Under the pieces are notes generated by a model that saw nothing but the letters and a program-made list of their open reading frames with translations, searched no databases and was not told the origin of the DNA. From IMG/VR virus record IMGVR_UViG_3300027821_000021, positions 1 through 30,167 of that record: DNA of 30,167 nt, one strand, 5' to 3'. This DNA is from a virus. Below, piece after piece: positions 13,351 to 27,683 of this stretch; positions within the stretch are counted from its first letter, which is position 1, and each line of letters begins with the position of its first letter. The position numbers and the translations under genes are program-made.

Positions 13351-14127
13351 CTATCTTGACCTACGAGGCGAAACCGGCGGCGGCAGCGGCGATAACAGCG
13401 ATGAACCCGGCGGGCAGGTAAAATCAATTTGCAGCCAGATCCCGGACACGGGTTCCGGTGCGTCTCCGGGCATCCCGTAATGCGGCGGCACCCCGGCACG
13501 ATCCGGGGGAACGAACTCGGCGGCTCCGGTCACGACCTCGCCCAAAGACCCCTCGCGGGTGGCGCCGACAACGACGGTCGTATTCAGCCAATCACTTACG
13601 TCAAAACCGATAAACTCGCCGGCGCCGCCGCCATTCATGTATTGAGACACGTCCGGGCCGTTCGGCGGAAGGTTGGCCGGTGGTGGCGCGGCCGGATTGT
13701 TAAGAAGCCGATAGGGATAGATCGGGCTGCGGTTGCGATATATCCAAAACCCGATCGAGTAATCATTGGCGCCGCCAATCAGATCTGCCCACTTCAGGGT
13801 GATCTTGAGGCGGGTGGCGTTGCCGCCGGGAACAAAGTAGTTGGTGTCGAACGTGCCGTCGGCCGGGTTGAACCCGATCGGCGTAGCGGGACAGCAGGAT
13901 GTCGGGTTCCACGCGACGCCAAGCCCGCCGGCCGTAATCCCGGCGGGACCGTCCTTTCCTCGTATGTCACCGAGCCAGAGACGGACATTATCGCCAAACG
14001 CATTTGGCCCGATCAGCCAGCCGCTGCCGCACGGCCCACCGCCCGGCCCGCCGCCGCCATCCGGCGGCCGATCCGTCTTGACGTGAAGCGTGACAATGCG
14101 GTCGAACGGAAACTCAACATAGGTCAT
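13351..14127 (-). CDS. Unknown distal tail protein
   Basis: This 258-aa protein begins with the beta-strand MTYVEFPFDRIVTLHV, followed by a Gly/Pro-rich linker and a beta-rich middle (TRLKITLKWADLIGGAND, about 104-121; IGFDVSDWLNTTVVVGATRE, about 173-192). It has a few cysteines (CGSG, SCCP, FTCPPG) but no recognised catalytic motif. The gene is overlapped by its upstream neighbour at 14124 (ATGA) and directly precedes the long fibre. It probably belongs to the tail tip or fibre attachment, an inference from gene order. Confidence 0.6.
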   Translation of the reverse strand: MTYVEFPFDRIVTLHVKTDRPPDGGGGPGGGPCGSGWLIGPNAFGDNVRLWLGDIRGKDGPAGITAGGLGVAWNPTSCCPATPIGFNPADGTFDTNYFVPGGNATRLKITLKWADLIGGANDYSIGFWIYRNRSPIYPYRLLNNPAAPPPANLPPNGPDVSQYMNGGGAGEFIGFDVSDWLNTTVVVGATREGSLGEVVTGAAEFVPPDRAGVPPHYGMPGDAPEPVSGIWLQIDFTCPPGSSLLSPLPPPVSPRRSR

Positions 14128-14615
14128 GCCGCGGCGGGGTTAGGCTCGGTGGTGTTCGGGTTCAGCTTCATCGTCTGGCGGCACGCGGCAGCGGCGCCCG
14201 CCGGCAAGAACTCCTTGTCGGAGGCGTGGATGGCGTCGGCCAGCCCTACAAACGACTCTTTCACGCCCGCGGCGACGTATGAGTTTTTCCGATACCAGTC
14301 GTCGCAAGTGTTTTCCTCTTTCTTCTGCAACTTAACCTCGGTGGCGCGGTGAACCATGATGTAGCTATCGGGATCGTTCTCGGCCTCGATGCGGTGCGTG
14401 TCCCCGGTGCGCGTGTCTTCGGTCAATGTCTCGTTGCAGCACTTCATGTTGACGCCCATCGTCGTCGGTGTGGGCAACGTGCCGGGCGGCAGCAACGCCG
14501 ACGAACCCCAGGTTAAGGTTGCACGCTCGGTGCTGTTGCCCGGCGTCGACGGCAGGATGACTCGGCCGAAGCTGTCGCGCGATTGGAACGGCCTGACAAA
14601 ATACTCAAACGGCAT
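14124..14615 (-). CDS. Duplicated tail-region protein, copy B
   Basis: This 163-aa protein starts at ATG 14613-14615 (MPFEYFVRPFQSRDSFGR), not at an in-frame start further upstream that would lie inside copy A. It is a paralogue of the gene just upstream. The first 55 residues (to VNMKCC) and the C-terminal block (CDDWYRKNSYVAAGVKESFV, then EFLPAGAAAACR) align closely, while the middle 40 residues differ. It overlaps copy A by 11 bases. The conserved CC and CDDW cysteines suggest metal binding or disulfides. The function is unknown. Position suggests a tail-tip component. Confidence 0.65.
   Translation of the reverse strand: MPFEYFVRPFQSRDSFGRVILPSTPGNSTERATLTWGSSALLPPGTLPTPTTMGVNMKCCNETLTEDTRTGDTHRIEAENDPDSYIMVHRATEVKLQKKEENTCDDWYRKNSYVAAGVKESFVGLADAIHASDKEFLPAGAAAACRQTMKLNPNTTEPNPAAA
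14436..14530 (-). repeat. 95-bp direct repeat, copy in gene B
   Basis: This stretch matches 14908-15002 with about six differences over 95 bases and no gaps, offset by 472 bases. The mismatches are clustered in one 8-base block plus one single change. The near-identity points to a recent tandem gene duplication or to gene conversion. Confidence 0.8.
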
Positions 14616-15087
14616 CTGAAGCCCCGTCGTATTTGAACGTGGTCTTCTCCCGGCACGCCGCTGCGGCGCCGGCCGGCAGGAACTCCCTGTCGGAAGCATG
14701 GATGGCGTCGGCTATCCCCACGAATGACTCTTTTACGCTCGCGGCGACATAGGAATTGTGCGCCAGCCAATCGTCGCAGTGGTTTTCGTCCTGCTTCTTG
14801 GCAAGCACGACGTTTGATCGTTTTACCGGAATCTCGATGGCGCCCGGCCCTTGCACCTGGACGTTGACCGGCTCCATCTCGGCGCCGTCCTGGGTGCGGA
14901 TTTCCTGGCAGCACTTCATGTTGACGCCCATCGTCGTCGGTGTCGGCAACGTGCCGGGCGGCAATGAGGCGGACGAACCCCAGGTTAAGGTTGCACGCTC
15001 GGCCGCGCCTGATGGCGTTGACGGCAATATGATCCGCCCGAAGCTGTCTCTGCTTTGAAACGGCCGGACGGCATATTCAAAAGGCAT
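14605..15087 (-). CDS. Duplicated tail-region protein, copy A
   Basis: This 160-aa protein starts MPFEYAVRPFQSRDSFGRII and is paralogous with the following gene (copy B). The shared N-terminal block runs to MGVNMKCC (about residue 57). The middle (EMEPVNVQVQGPGAIEIPVK) is unique, and the C-terminal block resumes at CDDWLAHNSYVAASVKESFV. No family was recognised. It follows the baseplate hub-like gene with a 3-base gap. Retention of two divergent-centred copies suggests different partners for the variable middle. Confidence 0.65.
   Translation of the reverse strand: MPFEYAVRPFQSRDSFGRIILPSTPSGAAERATLTWGSSASLPPGTLPTPTTMGVNMKCCQEIRTQDGAEMEPVNVQVQGPGAIEIPVKRSNVVLAKKQDENHCDDWLAHNSYVAASVKESFVGIADAIHASDREFLPAGAAAACREKTTFKYDGASDAV
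14908..15002 (-). repeat. 95-bp direct repeat, copy in gene A
   Basis: Partner of 14436-14530. It encodes the conserved part of the N-terminal block ending in MKCC. Confidence 0.8.
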
Positions 15088-17826: not shown

Positions 17827-18291
17827 TCAGACCTCTTCCAGGGAAATTGTCCAGTTTATGGACGCCGTCCATTCGTCGCTGTCGGTCTGCATGTCGACGA
17901 TGAGCATTTCTAGGGATGGCCTGTAGTAGGAGTACGCGCCCTCGGTGCGGGTGCTGCCGGTGACCGGGGTACGGCCAGGCGTGCCTCCCGCCGTCAGATA
18001 GGCAAGCTCGACGTGGCAATCGACGGTGACCGCCATCCCGACCCATAGCCCGTCGAGCGCGGGCGGCGCCTGGTCGCTGCCGCCGATCTCCAGCGAATAT
18101 TTGCGCATCTGCGGCGCCGAGATGTCGATCAGCGTGCCGTTGACGGTGCGGCGCAGCTTGTCGTTGCCCTTGGCCGCGTCGATCGGTGACAGCGTGCCCT
18201 TGAGCCCGCGCGCCGAGTACGGGTTGACGCCCGGCGCTGCGGAACTTGGGAGCCGGATATCGAAGACGGTCGGGGTGCTGGCGGTGATCAT
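17827..18291 (-). CDS. Small tail protein of unknown type
   Basis: This 154-aa beta-rich protein contains VFDIRLPSSAAPGVNPYSAR, RKYSLEIGGS, WVGMAVTVDCHVELAYLTAG and a C-terminal strand WTASINWTISLEEV. It overlaps the tape-measure stop (ATGA) and is followed immediately by the hub-like gene. Distal tail adaptors sit in this position in many siphoviruses, but the sequence has no clear signature. The function is inferred only from position. Confidence 0.6.
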   Translation of the reverse strand: MITASTPTVFDIRLPSSAAPGVNPYSARGLKGTLSPIDAAKGNDKLRRTVNGTLIDISAPQMRKYSLEIGGSDQAPPALDGLWVGMAVTVDCHVELAYLTAGGTPGRTPVTGSTRTEGAYSYYRPSLEMLIVDMQTDSDEWTASINWTISLEEV

Positions 18292-20012
18292 CGCCCCGGC
18301 GTGCCGCCGTACCAGCTCGGCTTGGTGCCGGCCGAGCGGATCTTGTGCCGGTGCGCCTCGACCACCAGCGCGTCGACGACGTTCTGGTTGCCGGCGAGCG
18401 CGAAGGACTGGCCGCCGAGGTGGAGGTGGACCGGGGCGCCGCCACCCGCCGCCACCAGGCCGCCGGCCGCATACTTGCCATTGCGCGGGATCAGGCTGCC
18501 GCCGCCGTTCATCGAGGCCAGCAGGCCGGCACCCCAGCGCTGCACCGCACCGGCGCTCATGACGAACTCGCCGTTCGATAGCCGCGCTAGGATGCTGTCG
18601 CTGGTCGGGCCGCCGGGGCCGCGCACCATGCCGCCGGTTGCGAACGCAGGCATTACGCCGCCCGGCATTGCCGCAACCGCGTTGGCGATACTGCTCGCGC
18701 CGCTTTTAATGCTGTCCCAAAGCCCAGCAAAGGCCGCCTTGGTGCTTTCGATCCAAGCGCTGAAGTCCGGCAGGTGGAATTTCCACTGTGCCATCCCCTG
18801 CGCGAAATCGGTTTCAAGCTGCGGCCAAAAGTCAGCAAAGGCCGCTTTCGTGCGCGCCATCCAATCCGGCAAGCTCTTGGTGAGAAAATTAGTTATCGCG
18901 TCATTCGTTGCGGCAACGTTCGGCGCCAGAAAATTAAACACCGCCGTGTCCATTTCCTGCCAAGCCGTCAGCAAGCGGCCTCGCGAGGCGTCAAGTTCTT
19001 TCAGGTTCGCCAGCCGCGCCTCGGTGGCGCCGCGTTCCGACTTCTCAAGCTCGGCTATTTGTTGGGTAATCTTAGCGATTTGATCGGGAATGGCTTCCAG
19101 CATTGTCGGCGCGGGTGCTTTGAACAACACCCTCGACAAGGCATCGAGCCGCTGTGGGTCCAGTAATTTCTGCTGGGCTTGGAAGCCCCGCATGATCGCC
19201 ATCTGCTCCTCGAGCATCCCCTTTTCGGTCGCCGGGAAATTCTTTGTTTCCACCCCCACCTGTTTGAGCGCATCAGCCAGATCGAGCACGATCTTCGAGT
19301 CCCCCCGAAGTACCTCGACCATCTTGCCGGCGCTCGTGGTGAACTGGCTAACCCCGGCCGCGGCATCGCCGGCCGATCCCTTAAGAACCTGGACGCCAGG
19401 AACACCGACGCCGCCTGCACCGCCACGCGACACCCCGACCTGGCCGATCGATTGTCCGGCCTCGACGCGCGCCTGCCGGATCGCATCGCCCATCGTCTGC
19501 ATCGCGGTCGTAACCGCGTCGGCGGAGTTGCCGGCATTGCGGGCGATCTCCTGCGCCGCCTGCACCGCGATCGGCTTGATCCCGATCTCCCGGCCAAGAT
19601 CCCGCAATTTGACGAGCCGGTCGTGGACCTCCTCGAATTGCGAGGCCAGCTTCTCCACCGCGAGCGTCGCCGCGAACCCCGCGAAGCCAGCTTTTAACCC
19701 GCCGAGGCTTTGGGTAAGACTGACGATTGAGCCTCGAAAGGTAAGCAAACTCCGCATCGTGCGGGTCGAGGCGAGACTAAACCCGCCCATCGCGCCGGTT
19801 GTCCCGCCCAGGGCCTTGTTCAGCCCGAGGAGTTGGGCCTCCAGGCTCCCGATGTTCTGGGAGATAGCTTGCGCGCCAGCGGTGTCGCCGGCTTTAACGG
19901 CGGCACGCAGCGTGCGGCCGAGGTCTTGGATCTGCGCCTTTAGGAGGCGGATCTCGCCGAGTGCCTGACCGGTGTGGGCGACGACGTTAAAGTCTAGATT
20001 GGTGCTAGGCAT
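18288..20012 (-). CDS. Tape measure protein
   Basis: This 574-aa protein sets tail length and fills the tail tube. The N-terminal 130 residues are helical and Ala-rich, with the typical tape-measure opening (VVAHTGQALGEIRLLKAQIQ; GRTLRAAVKAGDTAGAQAIS). Long helices follow, including a coiled coil at about 310-345 (IAKITQQIAELEKSERGATE). A Trp-containing helical section and a Gly-rich C-terminal part (FATGGMVRGPGGPTSDSILA) follow, a motif common near the end of tape-measure proteins. At roughly 0.15 nm per residue the tail would be near 85 nm, an estimate. It starts at ATG 20010-20012, overlapping the chaperone gene by 8 bases. Confidence 0.88.
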   Translation of the reverse strand: MPSTNLDFNVVAHTGQALGEIRLLKAQIQDLGRTLRAAVKAGDTAGAQAISQNIGSLEAQLLGLNKALGGTTGAMGGFSLASTRTMRSLLTFRGSIVSLTQSLGGLKAGFAGFAATLAVEKLASQFEEVHDRLVKLRDLGREIGIKPIAVQAAQEIARNAGNSADAVTTAMQTMGDAIRQARVEAGQSIGQVGVSRGGAGGVGVPGVQVLKGSAGDAAAGVSQFTTSAGKMVEVLRGDSKIVLDLADALKQVGVETKNFPATEKGMLEEQMAIMRGFQAQQKLLDPQRLDALSRVLFKAPAPTMLEAIPDQIAKITQQIAELEKSERGATEARLANLKELDASRGRLLTAWQEMDTAVFNFLAPNVAATNDAITNFLTKSLPDWMARTKAAFADFWPQLETDFAQGMAQWKFHLPDFSAWIESTKAAFAGLWDSIKSGASSIANAVAAMPGGVMPAFATGGMVRGPGGPTSDSILARLSNGEFVMSAGAVQRWGAGLLASMNGGGSLIPRNGKYAAGGLVAAGGGAPVHLHLGGQSFALAGNQNVVDALVVEAHRHKIRSAGTKPSWYGGTPGR

Positions 20013-20157
20013 CGAGCGCCTTCATGAACTCGCGGATCGCCTTCTCCTCGCCGCGCGCCGCCAATGTGTTGACGTGGAGCTGCTCGCCGAGGTCACGTTG
20101 CCGGCGCTTCTCGGCGATAAACACGAACGCCTGCAACTGCCGCGGCGTGTAGTCCAT
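20005..20157 (-). CDS. Tail assembly chaperone T-like part
   Basis: From the ATG at 20155-20157 this frame encodes 50 aa (MDYTPRQLQAFVFIAEKRRQ and on) with the helical basic look of tape-measure chaperone T segments. The ATG overlaps the stop of the G-like gene as TGATG, so coupled translation is possible. The same frame is open upstream to beyond 20331, and a -1 shift from the G frame at 20280-20286 would join both into a 201-aa GT protein, as in lambda. Both routes are open. The second matches the known siphovirus strategy. It ends 8 bases inside the tape-measure gene. Confidence 0.65.
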   Translation of the reverse strand: MDYTPRQLQAFVFIAEKRRQRDLGEQLHVNTLAARGEEKAIREFMKALDA

Positions 20158-20609
20158 CACTTCGCGGCAAGCGTGTCCGGCGGCGATAAGCTGTTCGGCG
20201 GCGGCGGCGCATTCGTAGCCGCTGCCCTGCCAGCCAGGCCGGCGACGGGGCCGCCCACGAGATGCGCCAGCCGGTCGAATAAAGGGCCGGGGCCGTGCGG
20301 CATGGTCAGGTCGCGGATCGCCACTAGGCACTCGGCGACGTCTTCCAACGGCATCAGATCGGCAATGGTGCCGGCAGCCTCGGGTTGCCCGGCCGATGCA
20401 GCGATGATGGCGCCGACCGCATCGGGCGCGGCGAGGAACAGGGCGTCGAGGTCGAGTTCCGGCGAACCCTCGACCAGCAATTTGCGCAACTCGGGGAAGC
20501 GCACCAGCAAGCCGGCGATCTGGCGCAGGCCGAGGCCGCGCAACTCGATGGCGCCGCCGGCAATCGCGACGGAGCGGGTCTGCGGGACGATGTCGACCAG
20601 CGATACCAT
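20157..20609 (-). CDS. Tail assembly chaperone G-like protein
   Basis: This 150-aa protein lies between the tail tube gene and the tape measure, the place of lambda G and equivalents, which keep the tape measure soluble during tail assembly. The N-terminal 110 residues are well structured (IELRGLGLRQIAGLLVRFPE; SPELDLDALFLAAPDAVGAI; DVAECLVAIRDL). After that the frame becomes low complexity (APPPPNSLSPPD). The change occurs right at a CCCTTTA heptamer, where a -1 frameshift would give the longer chaperone form. The start overlaps the tail tube stop. Confidence 0.8.
   Translation of the reverse strand: MVSLVDIVPQTRSVAIAGGAIELRGLGLRQIAGLLVRFPELRKLLVEGSPELDLDALFLAAPDAVGAIIAASAGQPEAAGTIADLMPLEDVAECLVAIRDLTMPHGPGPLFDRLAHLVGGPVAGLAGRAAATNAPPPPNSLSPPDTLAAK
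20280..20286 (-). other. Candidate -1 ribosomal frameshift site
   Basis: Read on the minus strand the heptamer is C-CCT-TTA in the G frame, an exact X-XXY-YYZ pattern. Slippage gives CCC-TTT and enters the frame that runs without a stop to 20005. The G reading needs exactly -1 to reach the T frame. The product would be 110 G residues plus 91 more. Confidence 0.6.
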
Positions 20610-21124
20610 CAGGGCACAGTCGTCTCGCCGAGCAACGCCAGCTTCATGTTCTCAAAGGTGAACTCGTCCATCGTGATGTTCAGCGCGGCCGATTTCTCGG
20701 TGATTACTTCGAGGTCTTTCGCGCGCACCCCGTAGCGCGAGCTGAAATGCGGCAAGGTGGTGACATTGGGCGCGAACTCAAACACCGGCACGTTGCCGAT
20801 ATCGCGGAAGGTGGATTCCGCTTCGAGCTGGATCGAAACCACGCCCTTGCCGATGTAGTACATATCGACCAGCGGCGAAACCAACGCGGTGTCCGGGTGG
20901 GTGATGGTGCCGAATTTCCCGGTGTCGTCGACCAGCACCTCGCCGGTAATCTGCAATTGACCCCACTCGTCTTGGATGAAGCCAACCGGATTGGATGGTC
21001 GAAACATCACCCTGTTGAGCTCGACGGTAAGCATCGGGCCGATGTCGTTGGCGCCGACGAACTTAACTTTGCCGATAAGCTCGCTGGCGGCGTAGATATC
21101 AAATGTGCCGGGTGTGGCGACCAT
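20609..21124 (-). CDS. Major tail tube protein
   Basis: This 171-aa protein is predicted to form the stacked rings of the tail tube. It is beta-rich with the usual tail-tube order of strands: TFDIYAASELIGKVKFVGAN at the N-terminus, LTVELNRVMFRPSNPVGFIQ, YYIGKGVVSIQLEAES and a C-terminal helix-strand unit (ALNITMDEFTFENMKLALLG). It is preceded by tail-completion genes and followed by the G-like chaperone. GGGAAAG lies before the ATG. The family call rests on position, size and fold pattern rather than on a specific motif. Confidence 0.75.
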   Translation of the reverse strand: MVATPGTFDIYAASELIGKVKFVGANDIGPMLTVELNRVMFRPSNPVGFIQDEWGQLQITGEVLVDDTGKFGTITHPDTALVSPLVDMYYIGKGVVSIQLEAESTFRDIGNVPVFEFAPNVTTLPHFSSRYGVRAKDLEVITEKSAALNITMDEFTFENMKLALLGETTVP

Positions 21125-22423: not shown

Positions 22424-23064
22424 ACCGTCCAAATCTTGTATGGCCCGAGCATGTCGCGGGCGCCGGCCGGGATAGCGCCGCCGCTCGAGCCGGCGCCGGT
22501 TTCGCCCGCGTAAACCTGGGTGATCAGGTCGGGGATGGTTTCGCTACGGAGTGCCGGATCACGTCCTACCGCGTGCCAGCGTAGCGTTAGCCATTCGAGG
22601 CAAGCGGCCTGGACATCGGCCGGGATCGTTACGAACCCCGCGGTGTAATCGACCGCAACTAGCGCCGCGCCCCACGCGATCGGCAATGCCGTTGCATCGA
22701 GCCGGAAGATTTGACCCGTCTCCGCGAACACCTCGATCAATGCCGGGTCTAGTGGCGAGCCGCCTTCGCTGACGAGTAGCGAAACTTCATCGGCGACGAC
22801 GATCGGATATTGCCGCGTCACCAGCGGTTCGCCGTAGCTGCCGCAAGCATCGCGCAACTGATCGCGGTAGGTCTGCACCGCGAATATGCGGTCGCAGTAA
22901 TTGTTGATCGCCATCGAGACGGCATTGATTTGGACCGCGAGCGCGTCGTCCTGCGAGGTGTCGCCGGCCTCGATGCCTAGCGCTACCTTGGCGTCGTCGA
23001 CGCTCACCAGCGCCATGCTCTCGGCGGGCGTCACAACCAGGGTGATCCGGTAGCCGTGTCTCAT
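22420..23064 (-). CDS. Head-tail connector (gp6-like)
   Basis: This 214-aa protein has the usual head-tail connector layout: SVDDAKVALGIEAGDTSQDD then VSMAINNYCDRIFAVQTYRD, a beta insert, and a helical VQAACLEWLTLRWHAVGRDP. These adaptors form a ring under the portal. The start overlaps the stop of the collagen-like gene (ATGA), and the stop overlaps the next start. The C-terminus (MLGPYKIWTV) is a plausible contact strand. Confidence 0.8.
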   Translation of the reverse strand: MRHGYRITLVVTPAESMALVSVDDAKVALGIEAGDTSQDDALAVQINAVSMAINNYCDRIFAVQTYRDQLRDACGSYGEPLVTRQYPIVVADEVSLLVSEGGSPLDPALIEVFAETGQIFRLDATALPIAWGAALVAVDYTAGFVTIPADVQAACLEWLTLRWHAVGRDPALRSETIPDLITQVYAGETGAGSSGGAIPAGARDMLGPYKIWTV

Positions 23065-23807
23065 CGCAGCTTTACGAGCACCGGGTAGAGATCACAATCG
23101 ATCGTGCTGCCGTCGCTCAGCCGGAGCCGCAACAACCCCTCGGCGTCGCAGTCGAGCGCCACCGGTGCCGCGCCGGGCGGGCCGGGATAACCGCGTTCGC
23201 CGATGGCGCCGGCCGGTCCCGGCGACCCCGACTTGCCGCGGCTGGCAAGCAGGCGCCAGCCATCGCCCGGACAAGCCCCTGGGGCGTCGCGCAGCGCGAT
23301 AAACGATGAGCCATCGAGCATAACCACGTCTAGCGCCTGATACGCACCAACGGGCTTCCATGCGCCTTTGGGAGCGAGGGTGCGGCCATCGTTTCCGGGC
23401 TCTCCCGGAGGCCCAGGAATGCCCGGTTCGCCCGGTGGGCCTGTGATAGCCTCGCCGGACTCTCCACGCACCCCAGCCTCGCCCTGTGGCCCCGGTGGAC
23501 CGTCTGCTCCGGGTGGGCCATTCTGCACCCCGGTAATCGCCCGCTCGATTCGCAGTTCCATCTCGGCAAGGGCGGCGCGCAACTCCAGCCGCATTTCGCG
23601 TTCCGCGCGGCCGACTATCGCACCCATTTCCTGGGCGATAATCTCAAGCGGCGATTGCAAGGCGATGCCCTGATCGGACACTGGATTCAAGTTGTTGTTT
23701 GCTGGGCTGGTTTGCACCGTCGCCACTCCCGTCAGCGGCATTGTCTGGTGGTGGCTGGGCATCGGCCGGGGTCGCCGATTGCGGCGAAGGTGGCTGTAGG
23801 TCGGCAC
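23061..23807 (-). CDS. Collagen-like putative head fibre protein
   Basis: The open frame gives up to 248 aa from GTG 23807. Starts at ATG 23762, 23741 or 23627 are also possible, and none has a clear ribosome-binding site, so the N-terminus is uncertain. After a helix (residues about 60-95) come collagen-type Gly-x-y triplets ([39 protein letters not shown]), a compact aromatic module ([17 protein letters not shown]...SSFIAL...[10 protein letters not shown]) that looks like a carbohydrate-binding fold, more Gly-x-y triplets, and a short C-terminal beta segment. Collagen-like phage proteins usually form trimeric fibres. Its place between portal and connector suggests a head or neck fibre, which is inference. 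The 5' part overlaps the portal gene. Confidence 0.7.
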
Positions 23808-25745: not shown

Positions 25746-27683
25746 TCAACCCCAGTTCACGCCCGTGCCGATGAACTGCACCATGCCGGTGCGCCGCATC
25801 GCCCAATTGACGTTCGCAATCATCCTGATCGCGATCTGCGCGGTCTGGAACATGCTCTGTGTCGGCGTCGCCAGCACGCCCGAACCCTGCGCGCCGGTCG
25901 CGATTTGCAAGGGCGTCGTGTCCTCCATGTGGATGGTCGCCACCTCGGACACGTCGAACTCGGGCGCGCCCGACACCGACACAAAATCCGCCGCGTCGAT
26001 CATGTACACCGCGCCTGCCGCGATCGAGGTCGAGTCGATCACCGTGAACATATCGGTGAACTGCGTCGACCAGCCGAACGGTGCCCCCGCCGGCCCCGGC
26101 GCATATAACAACTGGTTGCGCTGCGCCGGGTTCATCAAAAACGCCAACCGGCGGCCCGCGTTGACGGCGTAGAACGGCGCCGTCAATTTATTCATGTCAC
26201 CCAGGAACGCGGCATAGCCGCCGCCCGCCGTCGCGGTGAGCGTTGAGACGCCATTCGTCAACCCCGCCGGCCGGGTCGTCGATACCGCCACGTTGTCGAG
26301 CAACAGCGCGTCGATGTTGATCTGCGTGTCGTCGATGATGCTCTGCCGGATCAACGACTCGATGTCCGGGTTGGAGTAGGCGGCAATCTCTCGGCTGAAC
26401 ACGCTGATCCCGCCGACCTTGTGCGGGTAGAGCGTAATCGACGTAGTGCCCAACCTGCGAACCGGGATAGGTGCCGCTTCGGCGACGAACGATGCGCCGA
26501 TGCTGGGCGTCGCGGTGCGGCTCGGGATCTTGATCGCCCCCGAGTTCGGCCCGAACGTCAGTTGCAGCCCCATCGCTGAGAGCTTCGGAAAAACCTGGTT
26601 AGGCATCAGCGAATTAACGAACTCGCCCTGTCCGACTTGCACCAGTTCCAACGCCCAGCCGGCCGTCGTGGTGGTTGCACCGGCAATCGCCGCACGGGTC
26701 ACCACCGCGGTCTGCTCGTCGTCCGGGTAGCGCTCGCTCAGCGCCTGCTCGACCGAGATACCGCGAGCGTAGGCGATGAAGCGCGCGACGCAGTGGTTTG
26801 CATACAAGTCGCCCGGCGTGCGCTCCTTGCTCGGCAACCCGAGTGGCCGCCGGTTGATCGCGGGCACCGCCATTGGCGGCAATACCTGCTGCTGCGCGGT
26901 GCGCATGGCCAGCGACCGCTCGGTTGCCTGCAATGACGCCAGCCGCCGCTCCTGCTCGGCAATCTCGGCGTTGAGCCCATCGGCAATGTCGGGATCATGC
27001 TCCGGGTCCTGGGTGTGCTCGAAAAGCTTGTCGCGGGCCGCATTGAGCCGGGCCTGCCGGTCTTCGATCTGTTGACTGGTGGTAAGCTGTTGCATGGGGG
27101 GTGCCCTCAATCGGGGCTTCATCGCGGCTTGCTCGCCGGTTGTGGTCATGTCCCGTCGCCCGATTGCGGCATGCTCGCCGAAGGCCAGGGTCATGGTGTC
27201 GTCCGAGATCCCGAGGGACCGCGCCAGTTGCAGTGCCGCCGGATTCGCCGGCACTGATACGATGCTCGTCTCCAAAAGTTCTTGCCTGGTGTAGCGCGTC
27301 GCCCCGAAGGGCTTCTTCGGGTCGATCGGCTCGCTTTCGACGCTCTGAAAGCCGACGCTAGTCGCCCGCAGAATGTTCGCCTCAATTAGCCGCCGGACGT
27401 CGTCGGCTAGTCGTGTCGTGCCGGGAGGCGCCGGGACAAAGTTCGCCACCAGCCGGCCGCCGCGGTTCGATCCCGCCGCCGCTTCGATGTGAATGTTCTC
27501 CCAGGTGCCGACGACATTGTCCGGCTTGTGATTAAACAAGGCGATAGGGTTCGCCCGGAAGTGGTCGAGCATCCAGCCGTCCGGTTCGATAATGTCGCCG
27601 TAGCGGTCAACCGTGGCATCGCTCAGCACATAGCTGAGGCTCCCGTCCACCTTGCCGGCGGCGGTTTTACGAACAACTCGCAT
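25746..27683 (-). CDS. Fused prohead protease and major capsid protein
   Basis: This is one 645-aa frame combining two usually separate proteins. Residues 1-160 are an HK97-type prohead protease (S78): the opening DGSLSYVLSDATVDRYGDII, catalytic His52 in NHKPDN, and the Ser motif ETSIVSVPANPAAL (Ser140 likely catalytic). Residues about 200-262 are a charged coiled coil like the capsid delta domain. From about 290 to the end is an HK97-fold capsid protein (AGWALELVQVGQGEFVNSLM; GPNSGAIKIPSRTATPSIGA; ISVFSREIAAYSNPDIESLI; C-terminal MVQFIGTGVNWG). Self-cleavage between the parts would release mature capsid subunits. The fused form fixes protease at one per capsid chain before cutting. AGGAAA precedes the ATG. 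Confidence 0.9.
   Translation of the reverse strand: MRVVRKTAAGKVDGSLSYVLSDATVDRYGDIIEPDGWMLDHFRANPIALFNHKPDNVVGTWENIHIEAAAGSNRGGRLVANFVPAPPGTTRLADDVRRLIEANILRATSVGFQSVESEPIDPKKPFGATRYTRQELLETSIVSVPANPAALQLARSLGISDDTMTLAFGEHAAIGRRDMTTTGEQAAMKPRLRAPPMQQLTTSQQIEDRQARLNAARDKLFEHTQDPEHDPDIADGLNAEIAEQERRLASLQATERSLAMRTAQQQVLPPMAVPAINRRPLGLPSKERTPGDLYANHCVARFIAYARGISVEQALSERYPDDEQTAVVTRAAIAGATTTTAGWALELVQVGQGEFVNSLMPNQVFPKLSAMGLQLTFGPNSGAIKIPSRTATPSIGASFVAEAAPIPVRRLGTTSITLYPHKVGGISVFSREIAAYSNPDIESLIRQSIIDDTQINIDALLLDNVAVSTTRPAGLTNGVSTLTATAGGGYAAFLGDMNKLTAPFYAVNAGRRLAFLMNPAQRNQLLYAPGPAGAPFGWSTQFTDMFTVIDSTSIAAGAVYMIDAADFVSVSGAPEFDVSEVATIHMEDTTPLQIATGAQGSGVLATPTQSMFQTAQIAIRMIANVNWAMRRTGMVQFIGTGVNWG

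Follow-up and report, generated by a model that had tools for sequence, protein, structure and literature searches.

The lambda-type G/GT frameshift is a well-known phage device, a textbook kind of event. In lambda itself, a −1 programmed frameshift in gene G reportedly gives rise to GT, as described by Xu, Hendrix and Duda in 2004. A review of the field found G/GT frameshifting to be widely conserved, and CCCUUUN is absent from the sites it names as highly shift-prone in Escherichia coli (PMC5009743). The tape measure chaperones of the Caulobacter phages phiCbK and Colossus use AAAAAAC and GGGAAAC slip sites (PMC3556154), and UUUUUUC is another reported slip site (PMC6316719).

We analysed a candidate frameshift of this kind in a 30-kb virus record, referred to in its entirety as the window. 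The locus resembles lambda G/GT in its place between the tail tube and tape measure genes, in the −1 direction of the shift, in an X_XXY_YYZ heptamer near the C-terminus of G, and in its G and G-T products, which are here predicted from the frames. It differs in having CCCTTTN where lambda has GGGAAAG, and its G and T sequences are not evidently homologous to those of lambda. The tail genes run on the minus strand in the order tail tube, G, T (in the −1 frame) and tape measure, with the following features:

20609–21124, minus strand: major tail (tube) protein, upstream of G (NF052337 phage tail tube protein, E=1.7e-27; phrog_807, E=2.3e-25)
20157–20609, minus strand: G-like tail assembly chaperone, zero-frame product, 150 aa (Pfam PF23789, AlphaFold/Foldseek)
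20280–20286, minus strand: slippery heptamer C_CCT_TTA, predicted −1 shift site (phase and conservation)
20005–20286, minus strand: T extension, −1 frame after the shift, 93 codons from CCC, stop at 20007–20005 (conserved motif, phrog_13355, AlphaFold helices)
20005–20609, minus strand: predicted GT frameshifted fusion, 201 aa (both frames and the shift site)
20155–20159, minus strand: TGATG, in which the G stop shares bases with an ATG in the T frame, a competing restart (long-G class feature)
18288–20012, minus strand: tape measure protein, 574 aa, downstream of G/T (several PHROG tape measure families, best E=1.4e-14)

G starts at the ATG at 20609, within a TGATG shared with the tail tube gene, and stops at a TGA ending at 20157, while the end of the −1 frame (20005) overlaps the tape measure ATG at 20012. 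Several other minus-strand features of the window were seen. Two adjacent overlapping frames (14124–14699 and 14605–15087) encode similar proteins (MPFEYxVRPFQSRDSFGRxILPSTP...), apparently through tandem duplication. A frame with collagen-like Gly-X-Y repeats (23061–23807) lies between the genes for the portal and the head-tail adaptor, and its 5′ part shares sequence with the 3′ end of the former. A 645-aa protein (25746–27683) with matches to phrog_80 and phrog_617 appears to be a fusion of head maturation protease and major head protein. An Rfam search of the window gave no matches.

Phase and conservation of the CCCTTT site

A sequence-only reading of this DNA had proposed that the G-like and T-like frames overlap with an offset of exactly −1, and its coordinates and phase proved exact. 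Minus-strand positions 20286–20280 read CCCTTTA, phased ..GGC CCT TTA.. in the G frame. The −1 frame has no stop from a point well before the heptamer until the one that ends at 20005. A shift at this site would join G residues 1–110 to 91 residues from the −1 frame, giving the 201-aa fusion that the same reading had predicted. In-phase X_XXY_YYZ heptamers are scarce in the window, with three in its 12 other minus-strand genes. Taken alone, a heptamer in a single sequence is mildly surprising and only suggestive.

Two scans of viral contigs returned 54 and 74 loci in mostly overlapping sets. No close prophage relatives came up in a first scan of genomes, and a broader profile then added two Aestuariivirga prophages; no close relative of G or T was found among phage records. 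Together with the window and 59 other viral contigs, these prophages make up 62 distinct sequences that reach the site. CCCTTT is present in phase and at the same place in all 62, with G identity down to 34%, and the few loci without it end before the site. A further locus found via Pfam (L142), from a genome in the order to which Aestuariivirga belongs, carries CCCTTTG as well. Aligning relatives was the check that the sequence-only reading had set in advance, and both the heptamer and the openness of the frame were kept in every one of them. This conservation settles that the site is more than a chance occurrence.

The constraint at this site acts on DNA rather than on protein. In a 60-sequence tree, the first six bases of the heptamer underwent no changes, whereas the other third codon positions of G changed 14.4 times on average, and CCCTTT was the sole run of at least three unchanged bases in the gene. 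The seventh base changed 11 times, and A, C, T and G all occur there. Proline at the site is encoded by CCT in 62/62 sequences (6% of Pro codons elsewhere in G), with a synonymous identity of 1.0 compared to the expected 0.36. The codon preceding CCT ends in C in 100% of sequences, versus 43% elsewhere, and encodes eight different residues across them. The codon that follows begins with TT in all sequences and encodes Phe in 41 and Leu in 21, with TTA used for 18 of the 21 leucines (1.1% of Leu codons elsewhere in G). Since the YYZ residue switches between Leu and Phe while the first six bases stay the same, it is the DNA that is conserved. Soil phages of this group thus appear to produce two forms of the chaperone from a single gene, by way of a clade-specific and uncommon slip site, CCCTTT.

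Candidate stimulatory elements were also considered. RNAalifold, whose model excludes pseudoknots, found no consensus pairs downstream of the heptamer, and folding energies were near shuffled values (z near 0). The 45-nt segment beginning 5 nt past the heptamer was the most stable locally on average, also after adjustment for G+C, with z near 0 against shuffles. We claim no downstream RNA structure as a stimulator, as conserved pairs were not found and the local stability minimum is mostly a matter of composition. In part of the clade (e.g. L017 and L045), a Shine-Dalgarno-like GGxGGTG or GAGGTG occurs approximately 5–12 nt upstream of the heptamer. Upstream anti-SD pairing was stronger than in synonymous shuffles for the clade average but not for the window, and we do not claim a Shine-Dalgarno-like stimulator, as it is absent from the window itself. 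Some phages frameshift without stimulators (PMC5009743).

T coding ahead of a possible TGATG restart

The −1 frame past the heptamer encodes a conserved motif, WQGSGYEYAAAAEQLIAxGH....VMDYTPRQ..AF, the first block of which starts at approximately codon 18, about 25 codons ahead of the ATG at 20157. Across T codons 18–42, before TGATG, substitutions were distributed 23/26/51% over T positions 1/2/3, and the amino acid difference was 0.28 in the −1 frame, compared to 0.52 in the G frame and 0.46 in the +1 frame. By this test, a second frame under coding selection overlaps G in −1. In two relatives (L013 and L107), a −1-frame stop lies immediately 5′ of the heptamer, so ribosomes must enter the −1 frame at or after the heptamer. 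In 22/60 sequences, the stretch of the −1 frame from the upstream stop to codon 19 contains no ATG, GTG or TTG.

The TGATG at 20159–20155, with its ATG at 20157, had been put forward as a competing way to express T. The relatives (L010, L012, L013, L018, L037, L040–L043, L046, L054 and others) split into long-G and short-G classes. In the long-G class, an ATG overlaps the G stop in 39 sequences, of which 34 of the 60 have TGATG and the other five have different overlapping ATG arrangements. The short-G stop lies about ten codons earlier, within TTGATC or CTGATC, which encode Leu-Ile in T, and some short-G sequences have Trp or Leu in place of Met. G stops early in 21/60 sequences and 20 of these have no ATG at the stop; 11 lack a nearby start codon, and nine have only an overlapping TTG. 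In the long-G sequences, TGATG is probably a by-product of T's Val-Met codons, because GTG-ATG itself creates TGA in the G frame.

Both routes might operate, with the frameshift giving GT and a restart giving some free short T in the long-G class, although we consider this rather unlikely. The 34 TGATG junctions and the overlapping ATG of other kinds in the remaining five long-G sequences would permit it, but conservation of the junction does not extend over the whole clade and a good Shine-Dalgarno sequence before 20157 is not evident by eye.

It is very improbable that T is made separately, as a 50-aa product of restart at 20157, with the heptamer a coincidence. TGATG also joins the tail tube gene to G at 20609, indicating that stop-start coupling is used in this operon, and all 39 long-G sequences have an ATG overlapping the G stop. 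However, the conserved −1-frame protein begins approximately 25 codons before this ATG, which is codon 44 of the extension, and includes a predicted helix (22–35) ahead of it that a restart would remove. The missing ATG in 20/60 sequences and the ability of GTG-ATG to create the G-frame TGA unaided further weaken this explanation. The TGATG is where the sequence-only reading placed it, but as the main route to T it is rejected on the −1-frame conservation upstream.

A shift elsewhere in the overlap, or by +1 or −2 slippage, with the heptamer conserved for its protein, likewise has very little chance of being correct. Escherichia phage 9g, whose G/T frameshift at CCCUUUUUUU was reported as −2 (PMC4276943), offers a precedent for such a route. 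Against it, the YYZ residue alternates between Leu and Phe over six fixed bases, the +1 frame is not conserved, and two relatives have a −1-frame stop right next to the heptamer. Finally, a sequencing error or degraded gene can be dismissed as the source of the frame offset, as 62 distinct sequences, taken from many metagenomes and from two assemblies of bacterial genomes, have the same −1 offset and heptamer.

Predicted G and GT products

G matched Pfam family PF23789, Pre_tape_measure (E=3.2e-11; 43.7 bits against a curated cut-off of 27). An AlphaFold model of G residues 1–109 had a pLDDT of 83, and Foldseek matched it to the Xylella phage Sano pre-tape measure frameshift protein G, the Serratia phage JS26 tail assembly chaperone and the phiAxp-2 tail protein, with a weaker match to N15 GT. 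The predicted fold is shared with annotated PF23789 members (E 1.2e-5 to 3.4e-4; TMq 0.68–0.80), and the FoX4 member of the family carries the annotation pre-tape measure frameshift protein. A G chaperone fits the gene order, the Pfam family and the predicted fold alike. G had been described as turning low complexity right after the heptamer; such a turn is present but not immediate, the protein becoming Ala/Gly-rich approximately 9 residues and Pro-rich approximately 23 residues past the site.

For T, phrog_13355 matched 11/13 members (best E=2.9e-10), and AlphaFold predicted helices at positions 22–35, 40–44, 48–78 and 81–92 of the extension. Likeness to other T domains was weak. PF09550 (Phage_TAC_6) matched 2/13 members below its cut-off (best E 0.0043) and did not match the T of the window, and membership of T in PF09550 or in the chi-like T family was dropped because the similarity is too weak. 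The T model gave nothing significant in a viral fold library, and neither G nor T had a convincing match among solved structures.

Collectively, these findings make it almost certain that the locus uses programmed −1 ribosomal frameshifting as in lambda G/GT, at a clade-specific slip site. The argument is drawn from sequence: the slip site is present and conserved, T is coded in the −1 frame ahead of any restart, and G has a fitting family and predicted fold; along with gene order, these bear out the lambda-type G/GT chaperone that had been read from the letters. Most ribosomes would read G through to its stop, and the 150-aa product would act as chaperone to the tape measure protein. In a minority of ribosomes, the tRNAs on CCU in the P site and UUA in the A site would slip one base back to CCC-UUU, presumably at low efficiency, and translation would go on in the −1 frame to produce the 201-aa GT. 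In this protein, a flexible linker rich in Arg would connect the folded G domain to a helical T domain. On the model of lambda, G may coat the tape measure protein and T may recruit the tail tube protein, with neither kept in the virion.

As the seventh base may be any of the four, the A site is served by four different codons and by two or more tRNA families. One speculative and somewhat doubtful idea is that movement of the P-site proline tRNA from CCU to CCC drives slippage, in a host-tuned alphaproteobacterial site that replaced the A-run and GGGAAAC sites of relatives and is linked to a not-yet-annotated T-domain family.

Comparison with known frameshift systems

The 62 distinct sequences provide a clean, clade-wide natural data set for a slip site outside the A-rich heptamers best studied in E. 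coli. They also put a name to the T coding sequence of this phage group, a sequence that gene callers will overlook or shorten to 50 aa. In mainly openly accessible literature, we found no report pairing CCCTTT with a tail assembly chaperone and slippery site. The locus is similar to those of phiCbK and Colossus in that the −1 shift lies ahead of the tape measure gene in a phage of Alphaproteobacteria, with different slip sites (PMC3556154). It shares with phage 9g a tail assembly chaperone frameshift on a CCCUUU-containing motif, that of 9g being reported as −2 (PMC4276943). The same heptamer, CCCUUUA, was proposed with a pseudoknot for a −1 shift between capsid and polymerase in Giardiavirus, where its role is disputed, but this is a eukaryotic dsRNA virus with unrelated genes (PMC8230311).

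Casjensviridae and similar phages (FoX4, phiAxp-2, SAP012 and Xylella phage Sano) share with the window PF23789, the predicted fold and a related tail tube family. The T domain of Casjensviridae-type phages is only distantly similar to T here (hhalign probability 12.5%). Cultured relatives have other heptamers: AAAAAAG in phiAxp-2 and SAP012, AAAAAAA in FoX4, and GGGAAAC in Erythrobacter phage R22L; an in-phase heptamer was not found in Ruegeria phage V16. Among bacterial genome loci, in-phase AAAAAAA (L140), AAATTTC (L139) and GGGAAAC (L143) were present. The AAATTTC, in a related G gene, is at the homologous place and is another uncommon slip site. The slip-site codon pairs of these phages and bacterial loci align in the columns of the window's Pro-Leu. 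Since these codon pairs share alignment columns while the heptamers differ, the place of the G/GT shift has been kept while the heptamer itself was exchanged between lineages.
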